From: Bacteroidales bacterium
GTDB taxonomy: Bacteria; Bacteroidota; Bacteroidia; Bacteroidales; UBA7960
Assembly: GCA_003557765.1 (NCBI GenBank)
Contig: PWNO01000008.1
Span: 1-15,056 of the forward strand
Reading direction: 5' to 3'
DNA: 15,056 nt
Part shown: piece after piece, positions 1,299-14,638 of the stretch
How the letters are laid out: each line of letters begins with the position of its first letter
Position numbering within the stretch: the stretch's first letter is position 1
Notes under the pieces: model-generated
What the model was told of the DNA's origin: nothing
Database searches by the model: none
The model's input: only the letters and a program-made list of their open reading frames with translations
Made by a program: the position numbers and the translations under genes

Positions 1299-1333
1299 TC
1301 ATTTGCAGATATATATTGCTATTATAGGATGAT

Positions 1334-1355
1334 ACCAACAGGTCGAGCTGTTGGT
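1334..1355 (-). repeat. Perfect 8-bp inverted repeat in the kaiC leader
   Basis: ACCAACAG (1334-1341) and CTGTTGGT (1348-1355) are exact reverse complements with a 6-nt spacer. The element lies 36-57 bp upstream of the kaiC start, inside the expected 5' leader if transcription starts just after the promoter block. It could be an mRNA hairpin or an operator. No U-run follows in the kaiC direction, so it is not a usual terminator. Confidence 0.5.
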
Positions 1356-1382
1356 GAAGTGATTATTTTGGATATAATTGTT

Positions 1383-1447
1383 TAAATTTTTTAAGAAATT
1401 GCGAATTATTTATTACACAATTAGTAAAAAAATTTACATAATTCACA
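1383..1447 (-). promoter_or_regulatory. Two-box promoter block of kaiC
   Basis: In the gene direction, box A is TGTGAATTATGTAAA (1447-1433) and box B is TAATTGTGTAAT (1423-1412), separated by 9 bp. This is the arrangement found upstream of four other genes in the window. The -7 position, 22 bp after box B, reads AAAATTTA (1390-1383), keeping the TTT but not the final G of TAnnTTTG. This is therefore the weakest core promoter of the five. Box identity is seen directly; the role as an activator site is inferred. Confidence 0.6.
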
Positions 1448-1692
1448 GATTTAAATCGCGATGTATAACCATTTTTGTATTGGTTAAAACCTTAAGGTAA
1501 AGGAAGATTGGCATGTTCAGTACTCGCACTGGCAGGAAAGCCTGCCGGTAAATCAGGACAAGTTGTGTCTGGCGAAAACCTGAAGAGAAATATCATCCCG
1601 ATAGCTCCCTTTAGCTTCAAATGAACATTGAACGTACTCGTCACAGAAGCCAGGAGGGCTTTATAATAAGTTATTTAACTATTAGAATTTCT
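1448..1692. other. Intergenic stretch with two hairpins, no gene seen
   Basis: This belongs to the 394-bp gap between kaiC and the helix-hairpin-helix gene. No coding frame with plausible composition was found. Two hairpins are visible. ACTGGCAGG (1528-1536) pairs with CCTGCCGGT (1541-1549) across a 4-nt loop, with one G-T pair. AAGCC (1647-1651) pairs with GGCTT (1657-1661) across a 5-nt loop, 32-46 bp downstream of the stop of the helix-hairpin-helix gene. Neither is followed by a convincing T-run in that gene's direction, so terminator function is doubtful. A small structured RNA is possible but not supported by any motif I recognise. Confidence 0.4.
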
Positions 1693-2874
1693 TTACATTA
1701 CGGGTGAATTATCTTTTTTAAGTCTATGGGCTTGGGTAACCCAGTTCTGTATGTCCATTCGTTCGGGAGATATCTCAAGTATTTCGGATATTGTTTCCAC
1801 ATCTGAAGGTGTAAAGTTGCTGATTTGATCAAAGGTATATATGTCAAGCATATTGAGCCTTTCTTCGATCCACAGGCCAATTCCGTTAATAAGCGTTAAA
1901 TTATTCGCATGGTGTTTATGGGCAATCCCTAACCTGTCATAAAAAATCTTATCCTTCCTTCCCCGGATGCGCTTCAGGAGTTCAGCCTTTTTGCCTGCTA
2001 TTCTAACAAGTTCGTGTGCTTGCAATACCCATTCATCCCTTTCAATCCTTCCTGGGAAGTATTCAATAGCTTCGGTAACTATATGAACGTCCTCCTCAGA
2101 AAAATTGCTGATCTGTCTGAAGGTATAGATATCCAAAGCGTTGAGCTTTTGATTGATCCACCCTCCTATACCGCTGATTAATGTTAATTCATCCGCATTG
2201 TCTTTATGTGCAATTCCTATTCTGTCAAAGTAAATGCGCGTTTTTTTTGACCTTATTTGCTCCAGAAGGTTTATTCTGTTTTCTTCAGCATTTACAAGCT
2301 CTCTGGCTTGAGCAACCCATTTGTCTCTTTCAATCCTTCCTGAAAAGTACTCTATAGCGATATTTAATTTTTCAATATCGCCGGGGGTGAAGTTACTGAT
2401 CTGTCTGAAAGTATATATATCCAATGCATGAAGTCTCTCTTCAATAAAAGGACCAATACCACTAATCATTTTCAGGTCATCTCTTTCGGCTTTCTCTGCT
2501 TTCCCGATACTTTGATAATCCAGTAAATGCTTTCGCTTTGCAATCTGGACCAAAGCTGCGTCTGTTTCATCAACATACTCTGCATGAAGTGCTTTAAGAG
2601 TATTTATCTCTTTTTGAAGATAATCTGTTTCATTTCCTTTTTCACGAAGGTTCTCATGAAGATCTCTGTTATTTGCGTTGAGTTTGGCAATTTGATTATT
2701 CAACTCTTCCATTTTAGACTCAGCAATTATAATTTTCTTTTTTAAAACGGACCTGGAATAAAACCATGCTGTTATATACCCAATTATTGCAGCAACCAGT
2801 AATAATGTAAAAATTACAATTGTTGCCTCGGTTCTTGTTTGGGTTTGTACCAAAATAATTATTAATGTGTTCAT
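1693..2874 (-). CDS. Membrane-anchored protein with coiled coil and three helix-hairpin-helix repeats
   Basis: 393 residues. A single hydrophobic segment spans about 17-38 and is followed by RSVLKKK, so the positive-inside rule places the rest in the cytoplasm. Residues about 45-105 are charged, heptad-like and probably coiled coil. Then three units with a 96-residue period follow. Each has a helix-hairpin-helix core (SGIG or NGIG at 138-141, 234-237 and 330-333), then LDIYTF, QISNF, an acidic helix, R-I/M with acidic residues, and WV-QA. The cores resemble the helix-hairpin-helix domains of the COG3743-type predicted 5' nucleases, often found as C-terminal appendages. No nuclease catalytic core is evident, so DNA binding or protein binding is more likely than cleavage (inference). 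The start is 4 bp after the stop of the OmpA-domain gene, so the two are almost certainly co-transcribed and translationally coupled. Expression should follow the shared promoter block at 3484-3548. The precise role is unknown. Confidence 0.88.
   Translation of the reverse strand: MNTLIIILVQTQTRTEATIVIFTLLLVAAIIGYITAWFYSRSVLKKKIIIAESKMEELNNQIAKLNANNRDLHENLREKGNETDYLQKEINTLKALHAEYVDETDAALVQIAKRKHLLDYQSIGKAEKAERDDLKMISGIGPFIEERLHALDIYTFRQISNFTPGDIEKLNIAIEYFSGRIERDKWVAQARELVNAEENRINLLEQIRSKKTRIYFDRIGIAHKDNADELTLISGIGGWINQKLNALDIYTFRQISNFSEEDVHIVTEAIEYFPGRIERDEWVLQAHELVRIAGKKAELLKRIRGRKDKIFYDRLGIAHKHHANNLTLINGIGLWIEERLNMLDIYTFDQISNFTPSDVETISEILEISPERMDIQNWVTQAHRLKKDNSPVM
1717..2550 (-). repeat. 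Three tandem 288-bp coding repeats (helix-hairpin-helix units)
   Basis: The encoded units start near residues 109, 205 and 301. The anchor Q/R-I at 110-111, 206-207 and 302-303, and the GIG hairpins at 139, 235 and 331, are spaced exactly 96 residues apart. Units 2 and 3 also share Y/F-DR-I/L-GIAHK in the linker, while unit 1 has a diverged QSIGKA. DNA for the LDIYTF-QISNF part is visibly similar in all three, indicating internal duplication. Confidence 0.85.
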
Positions 2875-2878
2875 AATT

Positions 2879-3409
2879 TTATTTATTAATTGTTAATACT
2901 GATCTCCTGTTTTTGGCCCTTCCTGACCTTGTATTATTGTCGTCGGCTGGTTCATTCTCGCCTTTGGATTCTGTTATGATCTTATTTGCAGACATTCCCC
3001 TGCTTTCAATATAATGCTGTACACTTTGTGCCCGCCGGTAGCCCAGGGCCTGATTGTATTCAAAAGATCCGATTGAATCAGTGTGGCCAGTTACAACCAG
3101 CATTGCTTGTGGATTTTGGGCCAGATATACATTTGTCTCGTCAATAAACCTGTCTGCTTCTGCATCAGCAGTGAATTCAGATTTGTCAAAATCAAAGTAG
3201 ATTACCAGGTTGTCAGGGATTTGTGCTTTATTCTCTGCTACAAGTAGAATAATGGTGTCAGCCGTGGCACTGTCATTATAGGTGGCCGTATACATTTGCG
3301 TGATTATCGCCGGTTCGCTGCACAATCCTTGTATCCTGCAAACATAGATATGGATTGACAGTACCGACCAGCTTACAAATGCAATAAATCCAATCAGAAG
3401 AATTTTCAT
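2879..3409 (-). CDS. OmpA-domain envelope protein
   Basis: 176 residues. The N-terminus (1-22) is a hydrophobic segment that may be an uncleaved anchor or signal peptide. A Cys at 30 follows QGL, which is not a canonical lipobox, so lipidation is uncertain. Residues about 66-175 form an OmpA C-terminal peptidoglycan-binding domain: IYFDFDKSEF (70-79), GHTD (108-111), YRRA (124-127) and NRRSVL (167-172). The residues that in OmpA bind diaminopimelate, an Asp and an Arg 15 positions later, are present as Asp111 and Arg126. The domain should sit in the periplasm and bind peptidoglycan non-covalently. It is the first gene of an operon with the helix-hairpin-helix membrane protein, only 4 bp apart. 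The operon is driven by the two-box block at 3484-3548. The pairing suggests an envelope-spanning function, but this is inference. Confidence 0.92.
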   Translation of the reverse strand: MKILLIGFIAFVSWSVLSIHIYVCRIQGLCSEPAIITQMYTATYNDSATADTIILLVAENKAQIPDNLVIYFDFDKSEFTADAEADRFIDETNVYLAQNPQAMLVVTGHTDSIGSFEYNQALGYRRAQSVQHYIESRGMSANKIITESKGENEPADDNNTRSGRAKNRRSVLTINK

Positions 3410-3483
3410 AAGTCACTTTTTAAAAGGTGGGACAACATGTAATACCAAATTTCCATAACCAATTGTAAACAGTTATTGTGATC

Positions 3484-3548
3484 CAAAGATCGGCAGGTCT
3501 TTAACTAAAAGTGTTACATAACTTGTTAAATTAGTTACATCATTAACA
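3484..3548 (-). promoter_or_regulatory. Two-box promoter block of the OmpA/helix-hairpin-helix operon
   Basis: Reading towards the gene, box A is TGTTAATGATGTAAC (3548-3534), box B is AAGTTATGTAAC (3524-3513), and the -7 element GATCTTTG (3491-3484) starts 22 bp after the last base of box B. The 36-bp A+B block matches the block upstream of the lmo0937-type gene at 29 of 36 positions with no gaps. Box B would overlap the place of a Bacteroidota -33 element. The predicted start of transcription gives a leader of about 70 nt. Confidence 0.72.
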
Positions 3549-3647
3549 GTTTGATCCACAATCCTGCAGTACCCCGGTATTAAACATCGGGCAATTAGGA
3601 GGATGTCAGGACTATTTATCCCACACCTTTGACTTCCAGCAATTAAG
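3549..3647. other. Centre of the divergent intergenic region, nothing else seen
   Basis: The 330-bp space between the divergent OmpA genes (3410-3739) holds one outward-facing two-box block for each gene. The two box B copies (3513-3524 and 3672-3683) form a perfect 12-bp inverted repeat, which follows from the blocks facing opposite ways. Between the blocks I see no gene or hairpin of note. Confidence 0.5.
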
Positions 3648-3712
3648 TTTGAATCATATAACTTTTAAGGGAAGTTATGTAACATTTAACAGTTGCCGGG
3701 AGCTTAACTTTG
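3648..3712 (+). promoter_or_regulatory. Two-box promoter block of the glycine-zipper OmpA operon
   Basis: Box A is TTTGAATCATATAAC (3648-3662), the most diverged of the five upstream boxes. Box B is AAGTTATGTAAC (3672-3683), identical to two other copies. The -7 element TAACTTTG (3705-3712) fits TAnnTTTG perfectly and starts 22 bp after the last base of box B. The leader is predicted to be short, about 20 nt. Confidence 0.72.
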
Positions 3713-3739
3713 AGTAAAAAAATATAATCCTAAATCATT

Positions 3740-4411
3740 ATGAAAAATTTAAGTATGAGTTTAATATTGGTTTTGAGTGCAGCATTAGTTTTTGGTAGCT
3801 GCGCCTCCTGGAACAAAACACAAAAAGGTGCTGCTGTCGGGACTGCCGCGGGAGGTGCTACTGGTGCAGTGATTGGAAGGGCTTCCGGCAACACAGCACT
3901 GGGTGCAATTATCGGTGCAGCGGTTGGAGGTACCGCGGGTGCAGTAATTGGAAATCAGATGGACAAACAGGCTGAGGAAATAAAAAAGACCGTTCCTGAT
4001 GCAAATGTTGAACGGGTAGGTGAAGGCATAGTTGTAGAGTTCAACAGTAATGTTCTGTTTGGATTTGACCAGTCAGACCTGTCATACGAAGCCAGAGCCA
4101 ATCTGGATAAACTGGTCGTGGTTCTGAACAGTTATGCCGACACTGATATTGAGTTGCAGGGTCATACCGACAGCAGTGGCAGTGCATCATATAACCAGGC
4201 CCTGTCTGAAAGACGTGCCGGTGCTGTATCAGGTTATCTGGCAAGCAGGAATATAGATGCAAGCCGGCTTACAGTCAAAGGTTTTGGCGAAACCTTGCCT
4301 AAATATGATAATAAAACAGCAGATGGTCGTACTCAGAACCGAAGGGTTGAGTTTTTGATTACTGCAAATGAGAAAATGAAGGCTGAAGCTGCAAAAGAAG
4401 CAAACAGGTAA
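3740..4411 (+). CDS. OmpA-family lipoprotein with glycine zipper
   Basis: 223 residues. The signal peptide ends in a lipobox, FGSC, with Cys21 as the predicted lipidated residue, so the protein should be an outer-membrane lipoprotein. Residues 30-71 are a glycine zipper with repeated GAA-G, GGATGAVIG and GGTAGAVIG patterns. A short linker leads to an OmpA C-terminal domain (about 98-208) with VLFGFDQSDL, GHTD (141-144), SERRA and NRRVEF. Peptidoglycan-binding residues Asp144 and Arg159 are conserved with the normal 15-residue spacing. The C-terminal tail is Lys/Glu/Ala-rich. This architecture is common in Bacteroidota and proteobacterial stress-inducible lipoproteins. The gene lies 31 bp before a beta-barrel gene, probably in the same transcript, and is controlled by the block at 3648-3712. 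Role inferred: envelope stabilisation under stress. Confidence 0.95.
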   Translation: MKNLSMSLILVLSAALVFGSCASWNKTQKGAAVGTAAGGATGAVIGRASGNTALGAIIGAAVGGTAGAVIGNQMDKQAEEIKKTVPDANVERVGEGIVVEFNSNVLFGFDQSDLSYEARANLDKLVVVLNSYADTDIELQGHTDSSGSASYNQALSERRAGAVSGYLASRNIDASRLTVKGFGETLPKYDNKTADGRTQNRRVEFLITANEKMKAEAAKEANR

Positions 4412-4442
4412 ATAATGTTATCAACTCTAATAATATTTTAAA

Positions 4443-5129
4443 ATGAAAACAAGACTTATATTAATTGCATTGATGTTTGTGCTTTCAACTTTTATATCTA
4501 ATGCTCAGAGCACAGGTACTGCAAAAACATCCTTTGCCATTCTGGGCGGGGTAAATTTCCAGAATTTTAACGGCAAAGATAATAGTGGCAACAAATTGGA
4601 AAATGATATGATCATTGGCTATCATGCAGGGTTTAATATACAGATGCCCGTTGCTCCGGAATTCTATTTTCAGCCTGGTGTGCTTTTTTCCCTGAAGGGT
4701 TCGGAAAGCAGTTTTGGGTCATTAACAGGAACATACAAGCTTTCTTATATTGAAGTACCTATAAATATGGTCTACAAGGGTTTGCTTGGGAGTGGGTTTG
4801 TAATACTAGGATTCGGCCCGTATCTGGGTTACGGCATTATGGGTAATGCAACATTGGAATCCGGCTCTGTAAGCGTTGAAACAGATGTTGAATTCAAAAA
4901 TGTAGTGGAGTCCGGTGACCCTTATGCAACACCTTATTTCAGGACATTTGATGCAGGTGGGAACATCTTTGCCGGATATGAAATGGAAGGTGGGTTATTC
5001 TTCCAGCTCAACGCACAGCTTGGTATGCTGAAAATCAATCCCGAAGATAAGAGGACCGCAGTAGTCTATGGTGAAGAATTATCAGTCAAAAATACAGGAT
5101 TCGGCCTTTCACTGGGATACCGGTTCTAG
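4443..5129 (+). CDS. PorT-like outer-membrane beta-barrel protein
   Basis: 228 residues. A Sec signal peptide covers about 1-21, ending SNAQS. The mature part is a run of amphipathic strands with Gly/aromatic alternation (for example FAILGGVNFQNF, FYFQPGVLFSLKG, LSYIEVPINMVYKG, FVILGFGPYLGYG, LFFQLNAQLGMLKI) and it ends with GLSLGYRF, whose terminal Phe is typical for barrels inserted by the BAM complex. The pattern fits the outer membrane protein beta-barrel domain family (PorT-like), probably with 8 strands. Function beyond being an outer-membrane barrel cannot be read from sequence. The gene follows the OmpA lipoprotein gene by 31 bp, has no promoter-like element of its own and is closed by a strong terminator, so the two form an operon. 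Confidence 0.88.
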   Translation: MKTRLILIALMFVLSTFISNAQSTGTAKTSFAILGGVNFQNFNGKDNSGNKLENDMIIGYHAGFNIQMPVAPEFYFQPGVLFSLKGSESSFGSLTGTYKLSYIEVPINMVYKGLLGSGFVILGFGPYLGYGIMGNATLESGSVSVETDVEFKNVVESGDPYATPYFRTFDAGGNIFAGYEMEGGLFFQLNAQLGMLKINPEDKRTAVVYGEELSVKNTGFGLSLGYRF

Positions 5130-5150
5130 CATAATTGTTATTATTTTATT

Positions 5151-5188
5151 AAAGGGACTGTCTCAGATTTAAGAGGCAGTCCTTTTTT
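5151..5188 (+). terminator. Rho-independent terminator after the beta-barrel gene
   Basis: GGACTGTCTC (5155-5164) pairs with GAGGCAGTCC (5173-5182) with one G-T pair and an 8-nt loop. The stem is extended by AAA against the first Ts, and TTTTTT (5183-5188) follows. It starts 22 bp after the stop codon at 5129. Confidence 0.92.
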
Positions 5189-5203
5189 GTGAGAGGGAAT
5201 ATA

Positions 5204-5268
5204 TGTGATTTATGTAATTCATTTAAATAATTGTGTAACAATATTTTATAATTACACAATTATCTTTG
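5204..5268 (+). promoter_or_regulatory. Two-box promoter block of the small barrel gene
   Basis: Box A is TGTGATTTATGTAAT (5204-5218), box B is TAATTGTGTAAC (5228-5239), and the -7 element TATCTTTG (5261-5268) starts 22 bp after the last base of box B. Box B matches the kaiC box B at 11 of 12 positions. A 12-bp perfect inverted repeat, ATAATTGTGTAA (5227-5238) with TTACACAATTAT (5252-5263), overlaps box B and the -7 element. This is the only copy with such a feature. The leader would be about 95 nt. Confidence 0.7.
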
Positions 5269-5368
5269 TAATATTGAAATAAATCAAATCATCTTTTTCT
5301 AACACAGGGTTAAAATGTTGGGGCGAAACCGAAAAGCCAAACGAGTAGGAAACTGAAAAATTAAGCTT
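5269..5368 (+). other. About 100-nt untranslated leader, possibly structured
   Basis: The predicted mRNA leader contains a purine-rich stretch, GTTGGGGCGAAACCG followed by AAAAGCCAAACGAGTAGGAAACTG (about 5318-5356). Short pairings such as GTTGG with CCAAAC are possible, with a bulge. It vaguely recalls known riboswitch cores but matches none I can name. Confidence 0.25.
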
Positions 5369-5839
5369 ATGAAAAAAACTGGACTTATGATTCTACTAGG
5401 AGCTTTTATTTTCTCATTTAGCTATGCTCAGGGTTACAATACAGGTATCGGACTACGGGGTGGATTTTACAATGGATTAACCATCAAGCATTTTGTTAGC
5501 TCAAATACTGCTTTTGAGGGAATTATTACCAGTCGCTGGAGAGGAATTGAATTAACCGGCCTTTATGAAATTCATAACAGGGCTTTTAACACCGATAGGT
5601 TGAACTGGTATTATGGTTTTGGTGCTCATATTGGTTTTTGGAAAGGGAATAACGTGCGATGGGGAGAACAGGGAGAATCTTATACAGTTATCGGAGTCGA
5701 TGGTATTTTAGGGTTAGAATACAATTTCGCGGAAGTACCCTTTAATCTGAGTGTGGACTGGAAGCCTGCTGTCAACTTGTTTGGATACACAGACTTTTGG
5801 TATGATGGTGGAGCAGTTTCGATCCGGTATATATTTTAA
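5369..5839 (+). CDS. Small secreted outer-membrane beta-barrel-like protein
   Basis: 156 residues. The signal peptide is about 1-20, ending SYAQG. The mature chain is made of alternating hydrophobic/aromatic strands: GIGLRGGFYNGLTIKHF, TAFEGIITSRW, IELTGLYEIH, WYYGFGAHIGFW, SYTVIGVDGILGLEYNF, FNLSVDWKPAVNLFGY and GGAVSIRYIF. It ends in Phe, the usual barrel terminus, which fits a compact 8-stranded outer-membrane protein of a Bacteroidota conserved family of unknown function. The start is the first ATG after the leader; no good Shine-Dalgarno is at the right distance. The gene stands alone between the 5151-5188 terminator and a non-coding stretch, and has its own two-box promoter block, so it belongs to the same proposed regulon as the OmpA genes. 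Confidence 0.87.
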   Translation: MKKTGLMILLGAFIFSFSYAQGYNTGIGLRGGFYNGLTIKHFVSSNTAFEGIITSRWRGIELTGLYEIHNRAFNTDRLNWYYGFGAHIGFWKGNNVRWGEQGESYTVIGVDGILGLEYNFAEVPFNLSVDWKPAVNLFGYTDFWYDGGAVSIRYIF

Positions 5840-5875
5840 TTCGTTGTAAAAATAAACAATCCGGTGAGCAACTTA

Positions 5876-5896
5876 AAATGTTTGAACATCATTTTT
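5876..5896 (+). terminator. Weak terminator candidate after the small barrel gene
   Basis: ATGT and ACAT (5878-5889) flank a TTGA loop, with A-rich sequence before and CATTTTT after, giving an AAAATGT stem with one bulge. It lies about 37 bp past the stop at 5839. The stem is AT-rich and short, so termination efficiency would be low. Confidence 0.3.
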
Positions 5897-5951
5897 ATAA
5901 AGCCCCCTGGCAGGAGCTTGACAGGCTCACCGAGGCAGCATAAAAACAGAG

Positions 5952-5994
5952 AAAGGAGGTGAACATGAGAACCAACCCGAGGGTGTATCGGTAA
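5952..5994 (+). CDS. Nine-codon ORF (MRTNPRVYR) behind a perfect Shine-Dalgarno
   Basis: AAGGAGGTGA (5953-5962) is a full complement to the 16S anti-Shine-Dalgarno. It is placed just upstream of ATG at 5965, which opens a nine-codon frame ending in TAA (5992-5994). Most genes in this window have no Shine-Dalgarno, so the strength is odd. It may be a leader peptide, the start of a gene broken by frameshift (both other frames stay open for 30-40 codons after it), or not translated at all. No function can be assigned. Confidence 0.3.
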
Positions 5995-6437
5995 GGTGCA
6001 TTCAAGTAGCTCAAAAACAAGTAAATCAAGTGGCATTTATGCCCGAAGGACAAAGGACAATAACTATTTATGTGTGGAGTTAAACTAAATTGGCCGCAAT
6101 TGAATTGCCTTTGTTCATAAACCGGCTTAATCCCGGTTCAAAAAATTCAATTTGGATATATCAGGCAGATGAATTTGTGCGGATTTCCGGCGATAAAGCA
6201 GCACTTATTTATTATTGTCTTGTGTCAAGATCAGGCAGAGTGAGGTGTCTGTCGTAATGTAAGCTCCGGGTCGAGCGGATCGTTACCTGTCCACTTGGAT
6301 TTGCCCCCCTGCGCTTGAACCATTTTATAAGACAGCGTTTTGCATGTAAATAAAACCACCCCATTTATATATGATTCCGGGAATTGTCCTGAATTGAATC
6401 ATTGAAAGCTGGATGACCTGGTGGATGTTACTTCGGT

Positions 6438-6998
6438 TTAAGGAATGTCCTGCTTTCTGAAACCGGTAATATCAACAACCGACAGGAGGCATCTCTGGTC
6501 ATCACCAGTTACGATCCCTTCCATATAAACATATAATGAATGATTCTCATCATGACTAAGTTTTACTTCGCATGATTTTTTAACCTTACTGGTAAAAACT
6601 TTACTGAGGAAATTGTTGAATACCGGTAAAGAATCACTGGAAATGAAAAGCTTCAGGTTAGTGTTTACCAGACTGAAGCGCCTGTCGCCAAGCATATCGG
6701 CAGCAGTAAAATTAAGTTCGCAGATTGCACCATCGCGTTCAATTGTAAAATAGCCCATTGGGGCTAAATCATACAACATGGTGTATTTTTTCAGAGCCTT
6801 TTCTGCTGCTTCATTTGCCTGACGCAGCTCCTCGTTCTGCATTTCAAGTTCAATCTGGTGCACCTGCAATTCATGAAGGAGTCTCTTCTCATCGGCTTTA
6901 AGAACACGTAAATCATTCTTTTGCTGTTTCTCTTTCAGCAGTTCTTCAGCTTTTTTGCGCAGTATCCGGGGATCTGTTAAATCCTGATTTTCTTTCAT
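6438..6998 (-). CDS. Single PAS-domain protein with N-terminal coiled coil
   Basis: 186 residues and no signal peptide or membrane segment. Residues 1-70 are charged and heptad-like, with the LHELQVHQIELEMQNEELR stretch that commonly precedes PAS domains in Bacteroidota sensor kinases. Residues about 72-182 form a PAS fold: YDLAPMGYFTIERDG, an NFTAADMLG helix, a central LFISSDSLPVF, and strands ending in LSVVDITGFRKQ. No histidine-kinase, receiver or GGDEF output domain follows, and the stop is clean. It therefore probably works by protein-protein contact or as a ligand/redox sensor feeding a partner. It starts 34 bp after the CheB-CheR-PAS gene and is presumably co-transcribed and functionally linked with it. 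The usual homologues are the first part of longer kinases, so an ancestral truncation is possible. Confidence 0.85.
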   Translation of the reverse strand: MKENQDLTDPRILRKKAEELLKEKQQKNDLRVLKADEKRLLHELQVHQIELEMQNEELRQANEAAEKALKKYTMLYDLAPMGYFTIERDGAICELNFTAADMLGDRRFSLVNTNLKLFISSDSLPVFNNFLSKVFTSKVKKSCEVKLSHDENHSLYVYMEGIVTGDDQRCLLSVVDITGFRKQDIP

Positions 6999-7032
6999 CT
7001 CTATAAAGTATGGTTATTAAATTATTGGTGTT

Positions 7033-9948
7033 TCATCTTTTGAATATCAATATCATTCCTGTTGGCTTTTTATTAATGTTGTGAATAATTTTCACTGACC
7101 ATTCAACCGGTAAATTACCTCCTGGTGTAATTACCCTTGTTTTAAATTTCTTATCCTGAGTGTTACTCACCAGTTTAATCATTGTATTTTCTGTTCTTTT
7201 TCGAACCGGTTCGTGAACAAACATTTGAATAAAATCCTGATTTATTACTTCATCCTTTTTTATGCCAAAAAAAATCTCTGCTTCAGGATTGAATTCAAGC
7301 ACTTTCAGGTCAGTAGATAATTCAATTAATACATCTGATGTTGATTTTAATAGCAGGCTATTTTCCTTAGTTGTTTCAGATAATTTCTCTTCTATCTTTT
7401 TCAGCTCGGTAATATTAATAAAAGTGATCACAAGGCCATCTATTATGTCGTCAAATGTTCTGTATGGCATAATGCGGACTGAAAACCATCGTCCGTCTTT
7501 GGCCGGAATTTGTTTTTGTAGAATTATATGTGTTCTTAATACTTCGAAGGCATCATCGGCCATTTCGGAATATAATAAAACTGATGCCTGGTCGGTGAAA
7601 GGTCTTCCGATATCGCTTTTAATTAGTTTAAAAATTCTTGTTGCTTCATTCGTAAAACGGCGTATATTTAAATCCTTATCGAGAAACAAAGTAGCAATAT
7701 CGGTACTGTTAAGCAGGTTTTTCATATCATTGTCCACCCGTGAAAACTCATCCAATTTAGCCTGGAGTTCTGCGTTTACCGTTTGAAGTTCTTCATTCAT
7801 GCTTTGCATTTCTTCCTTTGAGCTCGTGAGTTCTTCATTGGTAGACTGGAGTTCTTCATTTGTTGATTGCAATTCCTCGTTGGTAGATTTTAATTCCTCC
7901 TGTGAAGTCTGCATCTCTTCAACTGAGCTCTGCATCTCCTCACGTGTGCTTTGTAATTCATTTTCAAGTTCCGATATTCTTGAACTGCGGGAGGAACTTT
8001 TGCCAGCTTCTGTTTTCGGTAAAATTTTGGAAATCTTGGGTACATCAGCAAATATGATCATTACCATGCCTTTTAACTGCTTCGGTTTATCAATCGATTG
8101 TAAGTAAATGTTTAAAGTTTGGGTATAACCGTTTGTGTCAATTTTGACATTGTTTATTACAACCTGTTCCTTTTGCATAATAGCCTTGTGGAAAGCAACA
8201 TAAAACCGACTTCGTAAACCTTCCCTGAGCATTGCAAAAATGTTCATATTAGCTTTACCTGTTGCCGGCTCAAGATATTTTCCCGTATGGCCGCTTATGT
8301 ATATGATGTCCCCGCTATGATTCACCAATACTCCGGGTGGTGAAAAATGCTGCAGTAGCAGTTCCTCGGCGAGGGTTTTAATGTTTCTATGCAATATTTC
8401 AGGGGATTGCTTTTCAATATTAACAGGTTTTCTGTGTGAAAAAGAGGAGGGGAAATTGAACAAATCGGGGGCCAGTGTATTATGGGAGCGTTTGTAGATC
8501 TTTAACCTGGAATCTAAAGGTATGAAAAGATGGTTCAGCGTTCCTATAGTTTCTGATTTGCCCAAAACCATAATACCTTCATTTCTGATGCTATGGTAAA
8601 ACAATTCAATTATTCTCTTCTGAGGCTCAGAATCCATATAAATAAGCAGGTTGCGGCAAAAGAGCATATCAATATTGATAAAAGGAGGATGCATGATAAG
8701 GTTATGCTGGGCAAATACAACCATCTCCCTTAGTTCGTTTTTGACGCGATATCCTTCATCAATATCGTTGAAAAAGCGGTTCAGGCGATCAGGTGATACA
8801 TCTGTAGCAATATTTACGGGAAATATGCCTTTCCTGGCAACACCAATAGCTTCTTCGTCAATATCAGTAGCAAATATCTGAAGTGATAGTTTTCTTGACG
8901 GCTTATTCTTTTCAAGCGCTTCTTTAAAGACCATTGCCAGTGAATATGCCTCTTCGCCTGAAGAAACGCCCGTTACCCATGCACGAAGCACTGAACTGTC
9001 CTTCAGGCTGTCAATTAAATCAGGAATAACCCTCTCCTTTAATTCTTCCCACACCTCATGATCACGAAAAAAACTTGTTACCCCAATCATCAATTCTTTG
9101 AAAAGAATGTCACCTTCTTTTGGATTATCCTGAAGAAAATTAACATATGAAGATATCTCATCGATTTTGTGAATACCCATACGCCTTTCGATGCGACGAT
9201 ACAATGTGTTTTTTTTATACACTGAAAAGTCATTACCGGTATACCTTCGCAGCAGAATAATAATCTTTTCCAGAGCGTGTTTGTCTTTTATATCTGGATC
9301 TGGACTGGTTCTGGAAAGTGAAGTTTGTTTAAGAAAAGCAGATAGCTTCTCCGGAAGAGCATCTGGAGGAGCCACAATATCAACAACTACGGCATCAATA
9401 GCGTTGCGGGGCATACTATCGAATTTTGCAGTGGCGGGTTCCTGCACCATCACTATTCCGTTTTTTTCTTTTATGGCACGTAGTCCTAAACTGCCATCGG
9501 AGCCCATTCCGGAAAGAATGATACCGATACTTTGTTCCTTTCTATCGTCTGCAAGTGAACGAAGGAAAAAATCAACCGGGAGTCGCATACCCCTGATTTC
9601 AATGGATGCAAAAAGACGGAGTATTCCATTTAAAATGGACATACTTCTGTTTGGAGGGATTACATAGACACAGTCTGGCTCTACAACCATCATGTCTTTT
9701 GCCTGATGAACTTCCATTTTGCAAATCCGCTGAAGAAGTTCGGGAAGCATACCTTTTTGAGTCGGATCCAGATGCTGGATTACAACATATGCTATTCCGC
9801 TTTTTTCAGGAACATTAACAAAGAAATGCTCCAGTGCTTCAAGTCCCCCGGCCGAGGCACCGATGCCGGCAATCGGGAACAGACCGGTAAAGGATTCGGA
9901 TTTTTTAACTTTTGGAGATGCTGTTGAACTTTGTTCCCTTGTCTTCAT
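7033..9948 (-). CDS. CheB methylesterase-CheR methyltransferase-PAS fusion protein
   Basis: 971 residues, soluble. CheB-type methylesterase spans about 22-205 with the catalytic triad visible as Ser32 (GASAGG), His59 (IQHLDP) and Asp151 (GSDG). CheR spans about 222-490: an N-terminal helical part with MIGVTSFFRD, a SAM site VTGVSSGEEAYSLAM (325-339; GVS where chemotaxis CheR has GCS), FATDID (359-364), and FCRNLLIYMD (430-439). A PAS-like segment (about 530-637) follows. Next comes a long coiled coil (655-735) with near-perfect repeats of STNEEL, then two PAS domains (about 740-850 and 860-970). There is no receiver domain before CheB and no histidine-kinase output. Family knowledge: CheB and CheR remove and add methyl groups on glutamates of chemoreceptors, but such fusions occur in non-motile bacteria and probably tune other signalling proteins. 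No chemoreceptor or CheA gene is in the window. It is first in an operon with the PAS protein. Confidence 0.95.
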   Translation of the reverse strand: MKTREQSSTASPKVKKSESFTGLFPIAGIGASAGGLEALEHFFVNVPEKSGIAYVVIQHLDPTQKGMLPELLQRICKMEVHQAKDMMVVEPDCVYVIPPNRSMSILNGILRLFASIEIRGMRLPVDFFLRSLADDRKEQSIGIILSGMGSDGSLGLRAIKEKNGIVMVQEPATAKFDSMPRNAIDAVVVDIVAPPDALPEKLSAFLKQTSLSRTSPDPDIKDKHALEKIIILLRRYTGNDFSVYKKNTLYRRIERRMGIHKIDEISSYVNFLQDNPKEGDILFKELMIGVTSFFRDHEVWEELKERVIPDLIDSLKDSSVLRAWVTGVSSGEEAYSLAMVFKEALEKNKPSRKLSLQIFATDIDEEAIGVARKGIFPVNIATDVSPDRLNRFFNDIDEGYRVKNELREMVVFAQHNLIMHPPFINIDMLFCRNLLIYMDSEPQKRIIELFYHSIRNEGIMVLGKSETIGTLNHLFIPLDSRLKIYKRSHNTLAPDLFNFPSSFSHRKPVNIEKQSPEILHRNIKTLAEELLLQHFSPPGVLVNHSGDIIYISGHTGKYLEPATGKANMNIFAMLREGLRSRFYVAFHKAIMQKEQVVINNVKIDTNGYTQTLNIYLQSIDKPKQLKGMVMIIFADVPKISKILPKTEAGKSSSRSSRISELENELQSTREEMQSSVEEMQTSQEELKSTNEELQSTNEELQSTNEELTSSKEEMQSMNEELQTVNAELQAKLDEFSRVDNDMKNLLNSTDIATLFLDKDLNIRRFTNEATRIFKLIKSDIGRPFTDQASVLLYSEMADDAFEVLRTHIILQKQIPAKDGRWFSVRIMPYRTFDDIIDGLVITFINITELKKIEEKLSETTKENSLLLKSTSDVLIELSTDLKVLEFNPEAEIFFGIKKDEVINQDFIQMFVHEPVRKRTENTMIKLVSNTQDKKFKTRVITPGGNLPVEWSVKIIHNINKKPTGMILIFKR

Positions 9949-10167
9949 AGAGTACCAATCATGTCATATATCAATCATTCTTATTTATATCTTTACTCTG
10001 CGGCATGGCATTGTGTTTTGGAATGCACTGTTAATATACTAATATTATGCATATCAACTAAAATATCATGCTGCTTTTTTTATCTTTTTTGCTATTATTC
10101 AGCATATTATTTTTAGTGCGAAACTTTAGTGACTTACGGGCAGGGCAGGAAGACGGTGACCGATACA
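9949..10167 (-). other. Intergenic region upstream of the CheB-CheR-PAS gene
   Basis: This 219-bp AT-rich stretch separates two same-strand genes and presumably carries the promoter of the CheB-CheR-PAS operon. I found neither the shared two-box block nor a clear TAnnTTTG element. A small plus-strand frame here is AT-rich and overlaps the start of the minus-strand gene, so I do not call it. Confidence 0.35.
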
Positions 10168-11076
10168 TTAAGGATATAACGGTATTGAGAATATAAAATT
10201 ACTGCCTTCACCCGGATTGCTTTCTAAACGGATATTTCCACCGTGCATTTCTGTGAATTCTTTGCAAAGTTTCAGCCCTAAGCCTGTTCCATGTCCATTC
10301 CCGCTGGGTTTCTTCAGATTTGTATTATCATTTCCAAAGAGGTTTTTTTGATCCTCTGATGAAATTCCAATACCGTTGTCAGCTACTCCAATTTCAACGA
10401 ACGGATGGCACTCTGAAATACTTACAATAATTTTCCCATTATTGCCGGTAAATTTAATAGCATTATCAATCAAATTTCTGAGTATTATTCTAAACATCTG
10501 AATGTCTGTATGTAAAATTAACTCCGGGTCAATGGAATAGTTAATGCTAAATTGTTTTTGAAAAACTGACGTACTGATTTTTCCAATTTCTTCATTTATT
10601 AAATTCTTCAAATTGACTTTTACCGGATTGAATTTCAGTCCATTATCCTGTAGTATTGCCCAATCTATAAGATCTTCAAAAATGCTATATGCATTGATTG
10701 CTGATTTAGTAGCAATATTAATATATAGTCCAGTTTCGTCTGATTCAGGCAGATGCATTTTTTTCTTTAATAGATCAAGAGCAATCAGGATAGCCGTGAA
10801 CGGGCCTTTTAGATCATGTGCAATTATTGCAATGGATTTAGCATTTGAAGTTACAACTTCGACGAGTTTTTCATTACGTTGATTGAGAAGTCTTCTTAAA
10901 TTGCTGTTGAGTTTTTCCAGTTCATTAATTCTTGTAACAAGAGAATTTTCCGGTTTTCTTAAAGTTCCTGGAACACCATTGGCATTATCATTTGACTGTG
11001 AATTTCCATTTTCTCCGCTTACATATTTCTCAGGGATATAGAGTTTGTCAGGAAAAATAAACTGTTTATTCTTCAT
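10168..11076 (-). CDS. Soluble histidine kinase (HisKA/HATPase_c)
   Basis: About 302 residues from ATG at 11076. The frame extends two codons further to a TTG at 11082, which is less likely as start. The following positions are counted from that TTG. The N-terminal 50 residues are Asn/Ser-rich and disordered-looking, then a coiled coil (50-75) leads into a HisKA domain with the H-box IIAHDLKGPF and phospho-acceptor His89. The HATPase domain has the N-box RNLIDNAIKFT (202-212), G1 DNGIGI (235-240) and G2 GTGLGL (265-270). There is no membrane segment and no sensory domain, so input must come from a partner protein. No response-regulator gene is adjacent. PAS proteins encoded downstream on the same strand are plausible input partners, but a 219-bp gap makes co-transcription uncertain. 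Confidence 0.93.
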   Translation of the reverse strand: MKNKQFIFPDKLYIPEKYVSGENGNSQSNDNANGVPGTLRKPENSLVTRINELEKLNSNLRRLLNQRNEKLVEVVTSNAKSIAIIAHDLKGPFTAILIALDLLKKKMHLPESDETGLYINIATKSAINAYSIFEDLIDWAILQDNGLKFNPVKVNLKNLINEEIGKISTSVFQKQFSINYSIDPELILHTDIQMFRIILRNLIDNAIKFTGNNGKIIVSISECHPFVEIGVADNGIGISSEDQKNLFGNDNTNLKKPSGNGHGTGLGLKLCKEFTEMHGGNIRLESNPGEGSNFIFSIPLYP

Positions 11077-11082
11077 AAGCAA

Positions 11083-11271
11083 TTATTTAATCGGTCTTAT
11101 GCACCTTACCATAACTGAAAAATTCGTGTTTGCATCAATTCAATATTATTAATCAACTCGATGCAAACATAAAAATGTTTTCGGGCAGCTTCCTTATAGA
11201 AATCCTGAAAAAATTTATATAATTCCTACATTTTTATATTTTAAGAAAGTGGTTCATTATAATAACTCGCA
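11083..11271 (-). other. Intergenic region upstream of the histidine kinase gene
   Basis: 189 bp between two same-strand genes. It contains a 10-bp inverted repeat and an overlapping TAnnTTTG element (see 11127-11171). The stretch nearest the patatin gene stop is AT-rich without a convincing terminator hairpin. Confidence 0.4.
11127..11171 (-). promoter_or_regulatory. Candidate promoter/operator of the histidine kinase gene
   Basis: TGTTTGCATC (11127-11136) and GATGCAAACA (11160-11169) are perfect reverse complements with a 23-nt spacer. On the minus strand TATGTTTG (11171-11164) fits TAnnTTTG and overlaps the upstream arm. A regulator bound to the repeat could control this promoter. No good -33 TTG is present at the expected distance, so the promoter call is tentative. 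Confidence 0.4.
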
Positions 11272-13545
11272 TTATAAACTCCACCCTAAATTGAGGCATG
11301 CCAATACATTCCCGGTTTGTGGACTGTATGAAAAAGACACTTTTACAGGACCAATAAGCGACAGGTATCCGAAACTCAAACCTGCACCTAACAGCAGTTG
11401 ACCGGACTGGAGTTTATTGAGGTTTTGTATCTCAAAATTGTAAAAGGCCGCGTTTAAAACAGGTACCAGGTAGAATTCGGACCACAGGTTGTAATTCAAT
11501 CCCATACCCGCCGTAATAACCGATGATGTTATTATCCCAAACTCGTTCAGGCCGGTAAAGGTTATCTGATCACGTAAAAAGGAATGCGTTCCACCAAGAT
11601 TGAAAGCATGAATGAAATCTTGAAAATAACGGAAGTTATATCCTGCCTGCAACTGAGTGAAATATGTAATGCGCTGATTAACTGGAATGAAAGACTCCCA
11701 GTTAAGCTTCATCCGGAAAAAGTTGTTAATGATGATATTTAGTTCGGTCAGATCATGGGAACTTCCATCATCTGCCAGGACACTAATCGAATGGTCCTGT
11801 CCGAGAAACCAGGTGATCTCTGTAGCCAGGTTTTGCCCTTTTCGCGTGTATGAGTGCCTGTTAAGAGAATATCTACTCCATTTTGCAAACATTTCATAAC
11901 CTTGTTTGTGTCCCTTAGCATGTAACCCGTTTATCATTGTGGGTGTTAATTCTTGCTTGAAAAAAGCGGATCCCAGTGTAAAAAATGAATGTTCACCGGC
12001 CGACTGGTTGATTGAGCTTTCCAGCCGGATATAGCTCTCTTTGTACTCACTGACCACCTCAAAGTTTTCATAAACCGGAAATATGATCATATCGCCTGAA
12101 GCCTGAGATCTAATCCAGATTCTCTGATTACTTCCGGTAAAAAAGTTGAGACCGGTTAAAAAAGCCGGTTGCTCGCCAAGACTCAATCTGGCAAACGCAT
12201 CCATGTTGTGGAACAAAAAATTATTCATTAAAATTCCTCCGATAATCCCTACGCCGGCAAACAAATTGTAATGAATGGCGGCGTTGATTTTAATAGAGGG
12301 TTTTTCAGAGAAATTGAATACAAGATGCGCTTTGCCCGGTTCCTTTACAGAAGGAATGTAGCTGTAAGTAACTCTTTCAAAATAATCAGTAGCATATAAC
12401 CTGTTTATCAGGATATTAATCTCGTCGACTCCAATGGTGTCCCCGGGTTGAATATGAGTCATGTTTCTGATGAAATAAAACCTTATGTTTTCAAGCCCGT
12501 TATAAGAAACAGAATCAACAACAATGCTTCTGATCCGTTGTACATGCGGTTGTTTAATGGATTTCCAAATTTCCCGTCGGGCCATGGCAATGCTATCAAG
12601 ATCAGAACAATAACTCCTTGCTATTTGTTTGCCTCTTTCAATTATTTCATTGACATCTGAAAAACTGTTGGAAGTGAATCCATCAAGATCTGGTTCGATA
12701 AATATATCAGTTTGCTCTTTGTTGACACGCAACATTTGTTCAGCTTGAAATAGTCCCATCTGATAAATTACTTCAATCGGAGATTTCAGATTTTCAGCCT
12801 GTTTAAGACCCTGGGAAACGTTTATCCCGATTACAAAATCGGCTCCCATTTCTTTTACAACATCAACCGGTAAGTTATTTACCACTCCTCCATCCAACAG
12901 TGTCATACCATCTCTCTCAACTGCCGTGAAAACAGCCGGAATAGCCACACTGGCTCTTAGGGCATTTACAATATCGCCCTTATTCAGGATTACAGCCTCA
13001 CCAGTTTCAATATTGGCCGCGACACATGCAAATGGTATCGGAAATTCATTATACCAATTTATACCGCGAACATGAAAAAACAAGTCCTGGAGTACACTCC
13101 ACATTCTTTGTCCCTCAACCAAACCTGTCTCAAACTTCAGCCGGTTATCAACAATCGGCAGCTCAGCTACAAATCTTCCGGAAATCCTACGCTTTCCAAT
13201 ATGTACATAATCCAGATCGGGTTTGTTCCCAAATACTCCTTCCCAATCAACCGACAACACAATATCCTCAATCTCTTTTGCATTATAGCCTGTGGCATAC
13301 AACGCACCAATAATAGCACCCATGCTTGTACCCGAAATGTAGTCAACCTTGAGTCCAAGACTATCTATCACGTGCAATACACCAATATGGGCAAAACCCC
13401 TGGCACCACCACCGCTCAGAGTTAGTCCGACAGATCCGGATTCAGGGTTGGATGAGGTTGTATGTACACTTGCTGATGAAATGAAACTCAGAAAAGTTAT
13501 CAGCCAAATGCGACAATACAGATAAATGTATCTTCGGGGTCTCAT
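11272..13545 (-). CDS. Patatin-like phospholipase fused to POTRA and outer-membrane barrel
   Basis: 757 residues. A signal peptide covers about 1-28. The patatin domain (about 38-245) has the oxyanion loop GGGARG (45-50), nucleophile elbow GTSMG with Ser74, the conserved ASVAIPAVF (198-206), and the dyad Asp218 in LLDGG; all catalytic residues are intact. A linker (250-335) leads to a POTRA-like domain (about 336-413; SIVVDSVSYNG to LVFNFSEKPS). The remaining 340 residues are amphipathic beta-strands ending in GPVKVSFSYSPQTGNVLACLNLGWSL, a BamA/Omp85-like barrel. This order matches type Vd (PlpD-like) patatin autotransporters, though in Bacteroidota the patatin part may stay on the periplasmic side. 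The likely activity is phospholipase A1/A2 or lysophospholipase on membrane lipids; the substrate is not readable. The gene appears monocistronic. Confidence 0.95.
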   Translation of the reverse strand: MRPRRYIYLYCRIWLITFLSFISSASVHTTSSNPESGSVGLTLSGGGARGFAHIGVLHVIDSLGLKVDYISGTSMGAIIGALYATGYNAKEIEDIVLSVDWEGVFGNKPDLDYVHIGKRRISGRFVAELPIVDNRLKFETGLVEGQRMWSVLQDLFFHVRGINWYNEFPIPFACVAANIETGEAVILNKGDIVNALRASVAIPAVFTAVERDGMTLLDGGVVNNLPVDVVKEMGADFVIGINVSQGLKQAENLKSPIEVIYQMGLFQAEQMLRVNKEQTDIFIEPDLDGFTSNSFSDVNEIIERGKQIARSYCSDLDSIAMARREIWKSIKQPHVQRIRSIVVDSVSYNGLENIRFYFIRNMTHIQPGDTIGVDEINILINRLYATDYFERVTYSYIPSVKEPGKAHLVFNFSEKPSIKINAAIHYNLFAGVGIIGGILMNNFLFHNMDAFARLSLGEQPAFLTGLNFFTGSNQRIWIRSQASGDMIIFPVYENFEVVSEYKESYIRLESSINQSAGEHSFFTLGSAFFKQELTPTMINGLHAKGHKQGYEMFAKWSRYSLNRHSYTRKGQNLATEITWFLGQDHSISVLADDGSSHDLTELNIIINNFFRMKLNWESFIPVNQRITYFTQLQAGYNFRYFQDFIHAFNLGGTHSFLRDQITFTGLNEFGIITSSVITAGMGLNYNLWSEFYLVPVLNAAFYNFEIQNLNKLQSGQLLLGAGLSFGYLSLIGPVKVSFSYSPQTGNVLACLNLGWSL

Positions 13546-13784
13546 TCAGAAATTATTATCAATTATTATTCAAAGATCCCAGCTTAACGTTCATTTTAAT
13601 GATGCAGGTACAATTCAATAACTGTCCAGGTAAATTTTTCCCTGGTGAAGCTGAAGAATAGTACAAAGTTAAGCTTGGTTATGAAAGCAATAATCCTTTA
13701 CCGGCGTGTACACTAAAAGCATTGCTCTTTAATGATTTCAATTTGCTGTCTGCAGAAAGCCTAATTAGTTCACATATGCCCCAT
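13546..13784. other. Intergenic region upstream of the patatin gene
   Basis: A 239-bp stretch without a convincing gene. It holds the patatin promoter candidate (13664-13671) and a weak hairpin CCAGG (13626-13630) / CCTGG (13641-13645). No clear terminator follows the lmo0937-type gene, whose stop is at 13785. Confidence 0.4.
13664..13671 (-). promoter_or_regulatory. Candidate -7 element of the patatin gene
   Basis: On the minus strand this reads TAACTTTG, a full match to the Bacteroidota TAnnTTTG element, about 119 bp upstream of the patatin ATG. A TTG lies upstream on the same strand at 13690-13688, but with a 16-bp gap, slightly short for the usual spacing. The two-box block is absent. 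Confidence 0.4.
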
Positions 13785-13940
13785 TTACAGGACTTTTCTC
13801 CCTTGAATAATCCTGAATAAAACTGCAATAAGCGCAATAACAAGAAGGATATGAATTATGCCACCAGCACTGTATCCTAGGTATCCGACTGCCCATAAGA
13901 CAACCAGGATTACCGCCACAATGTAAAGCAGATTTCCCAT
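13785..13940 (-). CDS. Small two-helix membrane protein, lmo0937 family
   Basis: This gene is 51 residues and easily missed. Translation from ATG at 13940 gives MGNLLYIVAVILVVLWAVGY, a GYSAGGIIH turn, then ILLVIALIAVLFRIIQGRK and the C-terminal residues. Two hydrophobic helices (about 4-20 and 28-45), the central GG-I-H-I-L motif and a basic end (R-IIQGRK) match the lmo0937 family of tiny membrane proteins, often seen as stress-induced genes in Gram-positive bacteria and Bacteroidota. Function is unknown; a role in membrane stress is inferred. A strong two-box promoter block lies upstream at 13978-14042, nearly the same as that of the OmpA/helix-hairpin-helix operon. This supports it being a real, regulated gene. 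Confidence 0.9.
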   Translation of the reverse strand: MGNLLYIVAVILVVLWAVGYLGYSAGGIIHILLVIALIAVLFRIIQGRKVL

Positions 13941-13977
13941 GATATTATTGTTTTAATTTGAGTTGTGTTTGCAAATA

Positions 13978-14042
13978 CAAAGATGAACTCATTGGCTCAA
14001 AAATATGTTACATAACTTCTGCAATAATTTACATTATTCACA
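13978..14042 (-). promoter_or_regulatory. Two-box promoter block of the lmo0937-type gene
   Basis: Reading towards the gene, box A is TGTGAATAATGTAAA (14042-14028), box B is AAGTTATGTAAC (14018-14007), and the -7 element CATCTTTG (13985-13978) starts 22 bp after the last base of box B. Box B is identical to the two OmpA copies. Box A differs from the kaiC box A at one position of 15. The leader would be about 30 nt. Confidence 0.72.
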
Positions 14043-14110
14043 TATTAATAAGAGATATAAGGTCAGTAATTTCTGAAATCAATTAAACTTAAAGCAAGTA
14101 TTATAAAATG

Positions 14111-14146
14111 TGAGAAATGTGTAATTCTATACCGGAAGTATGTAAT
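14111..14146 (+). promoter_or_regulatory. Degenerate sixth copy of the two-box block
   Basis: TGAGAAATGTGTAAT (14111-14125) resembles box A and GAAGTATGTAAT (14135-14146) resembles box B, with the same 9-bp gap and overall 36-bp length. At the -7 position (14168-14175) there is TGGATAAG, not a CTTTG element. It points to the ORF at 14175 and may be a decayed promoter, or a chance match in AT-rich DNA. Confidence 0.35.
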
Positions 14147-14174
14147 GTCAAGAAAATTACCAGTTACTGGATAA

Positions 14175-14369
14175 GTGGTATGGCTGGATTCAGGTCATGG
14201 AACTTCAAAAAATGTCGGAAGAATAATTACCTCCGGCAGATTAAAAGTAACTTTTGAGACAGTTGCTACCCTCAGACCAAACAGATTATTTATTACAGCC
14301 GAAGATAACGAAAATGTCCAGTATCCTGACTCAATTGTTGTTTTAACAACCGACAGAATAAGATATTGA
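14175..14369 (+). pseudogene. Possible 5'-truncated gene remnant (64-residue frame)
   Basis: The frame begins with GTG directly after an in-frame TAA and contains no internal ATG start. Translation runs MVWLDSGHGTSKNVGR, then a beta-rich stretch RLKVTFETVATLRPNRLFITAED, and ends TTDRIRY. Composition and strand pattern look like the C-terminal beta-sandwich part of an exported protein rather than a complete small protein; no signal peptide is present. I do not recognise the family. A degenerate two-box block ends 28 bp before the GTG, closer than in any intact copy (56-129 bp). That would fit loss of the N-terminal coding part and the core promoter (inference). Alternatively it is a small real gene with a GTG start, or not a gene. 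Confidence 0.4.
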
Positions 14370-14385
14370 TATCAGGATTCGGTTT

Positions 14386-14600
14386 ATTGCACATGGGCGA
14401 GGAGTTCCTGATGCTCCAAACCCATACAGGCGCTTATCAGGCGGGATGCGTTAGCACTCAATGTTAACCGGGCGACGGGGCTGTTCGGTAGGTCGGCGGA
14501 CACATCAGACGTCAAAATAAACGGGAACCTCAGACCATCGGGTTAATTTTTCAACAAAACGGCCGACACGGCGGACACCGCCGTCAATTTTTTTTTAAAA
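14386..14600. other. GC-rich structured intergenic stretch
   Basis: This is clearly richer in GC than its neighbours. It contains nested pairing ATGGG...CCCAT with GGAG...CTCC (14394-14425), a direct repeat CAGGCG-CTTAT-CAGGCG (about 14428-14444), a GCGTTAGC word, a 10-bp direct repeat CGGCGGACAC (14494-14503 and 14569-14578), and a terminator at its right end. No coding frame fits. It may be a repeat element or a recombination junction next to the toxin-antitoxin genes. Confidence 0.45.
14568..14596 (+). terminator. Rho-independent terminator
   Basis: ACGGCGG (14568-14574) pairs with CCGCCGT (14578-14584) across a 3-nt loop, followed by CAA and nine Ts (14588-14596). It faces plus-strand transcription coming from the 14175 region. 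Read on the minus strand it has only a short interrupted T-tract, so it is a poor terminator for the toxin gene. Confidence 0.75.
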
Positions 14601-14638
14601 ACCATCTAAAACGTAAAAATCAAGGTTTAAACCAATAA

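Follow-up and report, generated by a model that had tools for sequence, protein, structure and literature searches.

Promoter blocks in the window

The window analysed here, a stretch of 15,056 nucleotides (positions 1 to 15,056, forward strand, of contig PWNO01000008.1 from a Bacteroidales bacterium, assembly GCA_003557765.1), carries a 36-base-pair (bp) block ahead of a kaiC gene and of several genes for envelope proteins. In a preliminary description, five copies had been reported, each composed of a 15-bp box A, a gap of exactly 9 bp and a 12-bp box B, and a single regulator had been proposed to control KaiC together with envelope proteins. We consider it probable that an AraC-type activator, most likely a small protein with an HMA-like and an AraC domain, uses the block as its operator, and that the block serves a general-stress-type regulon.

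The first block (1412..1447, minus strand, 42.4 bits) lies upstream of kaiC, 114 bp 5' of its ATG; the gene (3..1298, minus strand) has 432 codons in the window and extends past its start, and matches the NCBIfam KaiC model NF006799 with 638.8 bits (cut-off 408). The second (3513..3548, minus strand, 33.1 bits) precedes a gene pair coding for an OmpA-domain protein (2879..3409, minus strand; PF00691, 72.7 bits, cut-off 27.2) and a protein that has a hydrophobic stretch at its N-terminus and contains three helix-hairpin-helix-like repeats (1693..2874, minus strand; PF11731, 34.3 bits, cut-off 25.5), in which three stretches match several NCBIfam models, all under their cut-offs. The third (3648..3683, plus strand, 29.8 bits) stands before the genes for a YiaD-family glycine-zipper/OmpA lipoprotein (3740..4411, plus strand; NF053611, 225.3 bits, cut-off 175) and an outer-membrane beta-barrel protein (4443..5129, plus strand; PF13568, 50.1 bits, cut-off 27). 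The fourth (5204..5239, plus strand, 38.0 bits) precedes a gene for a small exported protein (5369..5839, plus strand), read as barrel-like in the preliminary description and without a Pfam or NCBIfam match at an E-value of 0.001. The fifth (14007..14042, minus strand, 42.1 bits, or 54.6 including the -7 element) faces a gene for a membrane peptide of 51 amino acids (13785..13940, minus strand) of the lmo0937 family (NF033488, 62.1 bits, cut-off 30), also matched by the DUF5670 model PF18919.

For all five blocks the coordinates, the strands and the 9-bp gap were correct as first reported. Four of them are followed, exactly 21 bp past box B, by a -7 element, namely GATCTTTG for the OmpA/helix-hairpin-helix block (3484..3491, minus strand), TAACTTTG for the lipoprotein block (3705..3712, plus strand), TATCTTTG for the small barrel protein block (5261..5268, plus strand) and CATCTTTG for the lmo0937-family block (13978..13985, minus strand). 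The element at this distance from the kaiC block, AAAATTTA (1383..1390, minus strand), is weak.

The window was scored with a matrix from 30 sites of other genomes. The search pattern behind these sites was modelled on the window and its kaiC relatives and did not include the -7 element. As a control, 300 dinucleotide shuffles of the window were scored, and their best scores averaged 3.9 bits and reached at most 20.0, against 29.8-42.4 bits for the five blocks, which bears out the initial view that a chance origin is very unlikely. With a simple two-box pattern allowing up to two mismatches, ten matches were found in the window, five of which are the five blocks, against 2.69 expected, and none of 200 shuffles reached ten.

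Two weaker blocks, absent from the initial list, were also found. The sixth (11193..11228, minus strand) faces a sensor histidine kinase gene (10168..11082, minus strand; PF02518, 91.8 bits; PF00512, 29.6 bits) and scores 20.8 bits over 36 positions, just over the largest shuffle score, and 24.4 over 65; it was accepted also because its -7 element in the matrix scan, TATGTTTG (11164..11171, minus strand), stands in register. The seventh (14111..14146, plus strand) has no -7 element and scores 24.2 bits over 36 positions and 11.0 over 65. Next to it, positions 14175..14369 (plus strand) encode a 64-amino-acid remnant, 38% identical (25/66 columns) to the C-terminal part of a lipoprotein-like target family of 146 amino acids, a member of which (locus L209, 9223-9663) has a full site ahead of its gene. 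This pairing of a block lacking the -7 element with a remnant of a site-bearing family looks like a decayed regulon member, and the seventh block is probably decayed. Beyond the seven blocks, no score in the window exceeds 2.1 bits.

Architecture of the promoter module

Boxes A and B had been taken for two different elements; they are instead the same element repeated, and the block is a direct repeat, TGTGAATNATGTAAC-N9-NAATTATGTAAC, with a 21-bp period and a T-rich patch behind the first half. This was examined in 160 distinct sites of at least 20 bits, located at least 250 bp from the end of loci that were fetched by kaiC, motif or regulator. Column similarity in this set is maximal at lag 21 (0.193, followed by 0.134 at lag 30), and the spacer between the boxes is little conserved across sites.

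The -7 element is equally fixed in position. In a matrix of 35 sites (the five window sites and the 30 from other genomes), its A is present in 32, and the first two core T in 34 and 35. Among 124 sites outside the training set,.A..TTT is found at offset 21 in 99 and at offset 20 in 13, the other 14 offsets totalling 6. Its position exactly 21 bp past box B places the boxes, relative to the -7 in register, at about -69..-55 and -45..-34. TTG occurs inside -36..-28 in only 10 of the 160 sites, as expected for activator-dependent promoters. The half-sites are direct, about 21 bp apart and adjoin the -35 region, as in operators of AraC/XylS factors, and by this analogy the box layout appears to be that of an AraC-type class II activator. 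TAnnTTTG at -12 to -5 is given as the sigma-A box of Flavobacterium psychrophilum (PMC9723704).

Conservation in related genomes

A pattern that includes the -7 element gave 304 matches in 57 of 247 genomes of the class, and its reversed control gave none in all 247. A looser pattern matched in 54 of 198 genomes of the phylum, a sample that partly overlaps with that of the class, and its reversed form matched in 20 genomes, so that single three-mismatch matches of the looser pattern are often due to chance. Whole-genome scans of six genomes returned 52 matches and no reversed ones. In the fetched loci, overlapping ones being counted repeatedly, 133 matches against 1 reversed were obtained in 894 kb at a cut-off of 8 bits, and 118 against 0 at 20 bits; the corresponding figures for 636 kb of loci from other phyla are 4 against 0, and 0 against 0. 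The block is a real, conserved regulon signal.

Its confinement to promoter regions, reported for the window, extends to the relatives, where the midpoint falls in an open reading frame of at least 100 amino acids for a single one of the 160 sites. The copies also point at the adjacent gene as described, the next gene being co-oriented in 155 of the 160, and the median distance from the site to the next ATG on the same strand is 95 bp. Conservation before orthologues is evident for kaiC: with up to five mismatches allowed, the block is present upstream of the gene in 23 of the 48 loci examined (80 were fetched), those of related species among them, and is absent in all 11 examined loci picked from other phyla and in 14 others.

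Two of the 23 block-bearing loci carry unexpected titles, Nealsonbacteria and Balneolaceae. The former, L015, is titled Candidatus Nealsonbacteria and codes for a KaiC with 86% identity, preceded by the Bacteroidota promoter block, and its contig is probably misbinned. In locus L001, two tandem sites (3304 and 3440) lie ahead of one kaiC gene, and in L004 a regulator gene is found beside kaiC, yet no block is present at that kaiC.

Candidate regulator

The gene found next to many of the sites codes for a protein of about 186 amino acids, which is most likely the regulator and combines an HMA-like domain at the N-terminus with an AraC DNA-binding domain (HTH_18, with the two helix-turn-helix motifs of the AraC type). 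In the structure model (predicted local distance difference test score 85.5), residues 1-63 form the HMA-like domain, with the predicted ferredoxin-like fold of metallochaperones, and residues 64-180 the AraC DNA-binding domain. In the isolate Paucihalobacter ruber CWB-1, a single copy of the gene was found (E-value 5.1e-90).

A close form of this protein (E-value ≤ 1e-85) is found in 24 genomes, which include G002, one of the sources of training sites, and the promoter pattern is present in 24 of these 24 and in 33 of the 223 others (Fisher p 6e-18); at E ≤ 1e-60 it is present in 39 of 91 genomes with the protein and 18 of 156 without (p 3e-8), both p-values being given without phylogenetic correction and the 1e-85 cut having been picked after viewing the list. 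We also inspected 70 regulator-anchored loci, i.e., 30 loci plus the 40 next-listed matches, five in this range being omitted as they were already inside larger loci. A site of at least 14 bits lies near the regulator gene in 22 of the 70, and the reversed control gave none. Distant paralogues, too, have sites at their own promoter or stop codon, variant in form but alike in architecture.

The first cysteine of the CxxC motif is kept in 54 of the 70 regulator proteins and replaced by serine in 16. The replacement is found in 11 of 13 close-form proteins versus 5 of the 57 others, and the regulators of G001, G005 and G003 retain the cysteine. From these sequences we infer that part of the stress branch may have changed or lost metal sensing. 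In loci L121 (4177-4737 and 5043-5603) and L127, an lmo0937-like gene lies between two tandem regulator paralogues of its island, the second paralogue being 46-48% identical to the query. In L234 and L237, metal-type paralogues with variant sites of the same architecture lie beside His-rich heavy-metal-type genes.

Several observations weigh against this protein as the general reader of the block, in addition to the properties of the statistics given above. The regulator gene lies outside the window, and 48 of the 70 regulator-anchored loci lack a site of at least 14 bits. Eighteen of the 57 motif-bearing genomes have no regulator at E ≤ 1e-60. When 12 of these were re-searched, seven proved to have a distant relative, and G398 (19 sites), G385, G351, G321 and G315 had none at E ≤ 1e-8; the remaining six of the 18 carry one site each. 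G017 and G022, with seven sites each, have a distant regulator only, and of their 13 AraC-type matches none is of the small HMA type within the site clusters looked at; a non-HMA AraC-type gene is found about 2.5 kb from a site in G017 (C70:21442). In G365 and in one copy of G243 the DNA-binding part is kept, and the N-terminus is different or degenerate, with no recognisable HMA start. The first sample contained 12 close-form genomes, one of which (G067) gave no match to the pattern; among its 186 other genomes, 43 gave one, many by chance. Incomplete assemblies may explain some of the absences, for example in G398. The candidate regulator is nevertheless well supported, its binding to the block and its physiology being predicted. 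That one regulator acts on both KaiC and envelope genes, as first proposed, appears likely from the sites found upstream of these genes in relatives and from the retention of the block before kaiC orthologues.

Regulon content

Targets were grouped by clustering 154 proteins encoded downstream of sites, supplemented by family scans. KaiC forms the commonest cluster (23 of 154), mostly as a result of the sampling, in which kaiC served to fetch 80 of the loci. A cluster of 20 members is a chance merger of eight CsbD-like proteins with 11 ice-binding-like or similar exported proteins and one that joins both, and the family scan covered one CsbD-like and one ice-binding-like member of it. In locus L121 (7880-11176), a protein of 1098 amino acids with its own site continues, after a CsbD-like start, as a long exported protein of ice-binding-like type, and bridges the two clusters. 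An OmpA cluster of 11 includes six glycine-zipper lipoproteins, the remainder being other proteins. The other downstream families are Thivi_2564 (7) and lmo0937 (6) membrane peptides, Dps/ferritin (3), DUF892, Usp, BON, AsmA-like and CheB/PAS sensor proteins. YtxH is found further along the site-bearing island of L111, not directly behind a site. In L209 and L210, the genes for Dps, DUF892, CsbD-like and short membrane proteins have one site each and form dense arrays of single-gene promoters.

For the SigB regulon of Bacillus subtilis, csbD, dps and ytxH are listed in PMC7824861, and csbD and universal stress genes appear as SigB-type general stress genes in PMC2248587. Since CsbD, Dps, Usp and similar proteins are among the targets, and csbD, dps and ytxH are on the SigB list, the set looks like a general stress regulon biased towards the envelope, having the broad range of general stress proteins typical of sigma-B and sigma-S. 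The initial inference of KaiC together with envelope proteins holds in that envelope genes are included, but the scope is wider, as CsbD, Dps and Usp look like general stress proteins. The regulon would respond to stress.

In L111, L115 and L125, two KaiB-like genes and a gene for a PAS-type protein come after kaiC in islands that bear sites. The KaiB family was confirmed for one gene of L111/L115/L125, and the other KaiB-like and PAS calls are by resemblance. These islands may represent a KaiBC module that is driven, outside cyanobacteria, by a stress-type promoter.

Two more genes of the window were noted. A CheB-CheR-PAS fusion protein is encoded at 7033-9948 (minus strand), with no site ahead of it in the matrix scan of the window; L115, a relative, contains a CheB-like gene (from 18055 on) for which a site lies at 17632-17667. 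A VapC-like gene, with scores under the NCBIfam cut-offs, lies at the window edge (14639-15010, minus strand).

Proposed mechanism and alternatives

In the mechanism we propose, two AraC-type monomers would bind the two halves of the direct repeat, the proximal half standing in for the missing -33 element and recruiting sigma-A RNA polymerase to the TAnnTTTG box at -7, in a class II activation as at araBAD I1/I2. The close form of the HMA-AraC protein would govern the general-stress-type regulon, and the distant paralogues, which mostly retain the complete CxxC, seem to work through an architecture of this kind; two of them lie beside heavy-metal-type genes.

The alternative that survives best accepts the sites and the regulator as described, and assigns to them a narrow cue, such as metal, redox, cold, or light through the KaiC/PAS proteins, instead of general stress. 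The HMA-like sensor fold would fit such a cue, as would the ice-binding-like and KaiC targets and the metal-type paralogues of L234 and L237. However, the breadth of the targets, from CsbD, Dps and Usp to BON and DUF892, and the loss of the first CxxC cysteine in most close-form proteins argue against it, and we regard it as rather unlikely, if the most serious competitor.

Clearly less probable is that a different activator reads the block, either a LytTR response regulator or another AraC-type protein, the HMA-AraC gene being a mere neighbour or fellow member of the regulon. LytTR factors also use direct repeats of about 21-bp period, several site-bearing genomes have no recognisable HMA-AraC gene, and the non-HMA AraC-type gene of G017 could be a candidate. 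The presence of sites in 24 of 24 close-form genomes speaks against this, and a passenger gene would leave unexplained the variant sites, alike in architecture, that distant paralogues have at their own promoter or stop codon.

Promoters of an alternative sigma factor, of the extracytoplasmic function or sigma-B-like type, would also account for the stress-type targets and for the fixed position upstream of genes, but the -7 in register is the sigma-A TAnnTTTG rather than an alternative-sigma element, and boxes at -69..-34 lie beyond a two-element sigma promoter; we dropped this possibility as very improbable. That the blocks are repeats or mobile elements with no regulatory role, as their clustering in gene islands of several genomes might suggest, was dismissed almost outright, given their fixed orientation and gene distance, the -7 in register, the little-conserved spacer and their occurrence before orthologues in different genomes.

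Comparison with known systems

The HMA-AraC protein differs from AraC of Escherichia coli at araBAD I1/I2 in having an HMA-like sensor where AraC has an arabinose-binding cupin, and in acting, as predicted, at promoters with the Bacteroidota -7 box and on many dispersed targets. MarA, SoxS and Rob are small stress regulators of the AraC type that bind single asymmetric marboxes, whereas here the half-sites are paired and an N-terminal domain is added. Relative to the metallochaperones CopZ, Atx1 and GolB, the HMA-like domain is fused to a DNA-binding domain, with the first cysteine changed to serine in 11 of 13 close-form proteins.

The AraC-type hybrid two-component systems (HTCS) of Bacteroides belong to the same phylum and share the AraC-type helix-turn-helix and direct repeats of about 21 bp; their predicted motifs are direct repeats averaging 21 bp, one of them with 12-bp sites and a 9-bp spacer (PMC3878776). 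The architecture proposed here for binding is thus of a known kind. HTCS act on polysaccharide loci and contain domains for sensing, a kinase and a receiver, unlike the small one-piece protein described here, which is linked to stress-type genes and in which the HMA-like and AraC domains fill the approximately 186 amino acids, with no HTCS-type sensor, kinase and receiver in the AraC chain. With the SigB regulon of Bacillus and Listeria there are shared families, but an alternative sigma factor acts there, and an activator at sigma-A promoters is predicted here. Among the papers listed from the open-licence PMC literature there is no description of the motif, the regulator or the regulon, nor of how the regulator's domains are combined, of its set of predicted targets or of the fixed promoter module.

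Biological significance

We tentatively suggest, with somewhat less than even confidence, that general stress responses in much of the Bacteroidota came under a master regulator descended from a metal sensor, through duplication of HMA-AraC, altered or lost metal sensing in the stress branch, and a fixed sigma-A module that took over a gene set of the sigma-B/sigma-S type plus a clock-like KaiC/KaiB module. To our knowledge, Bacteroidota have no sigma-S or sigma-B; the promoter switch proposed here could explain how stress genes are coordinated across this large phylum. The analysis defines a promoter code, names a candidate regulator and lists putative targets. Functions could in this way be assigned to many hypothetical proteins, of the membrane or exported, that are encoded in environmental and metagenome-assembled genomes. 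It also suggests a path from metal sensing to stress control and, as the sites indicate, would place a KaiC under stress-type control outside cyanobacteria.

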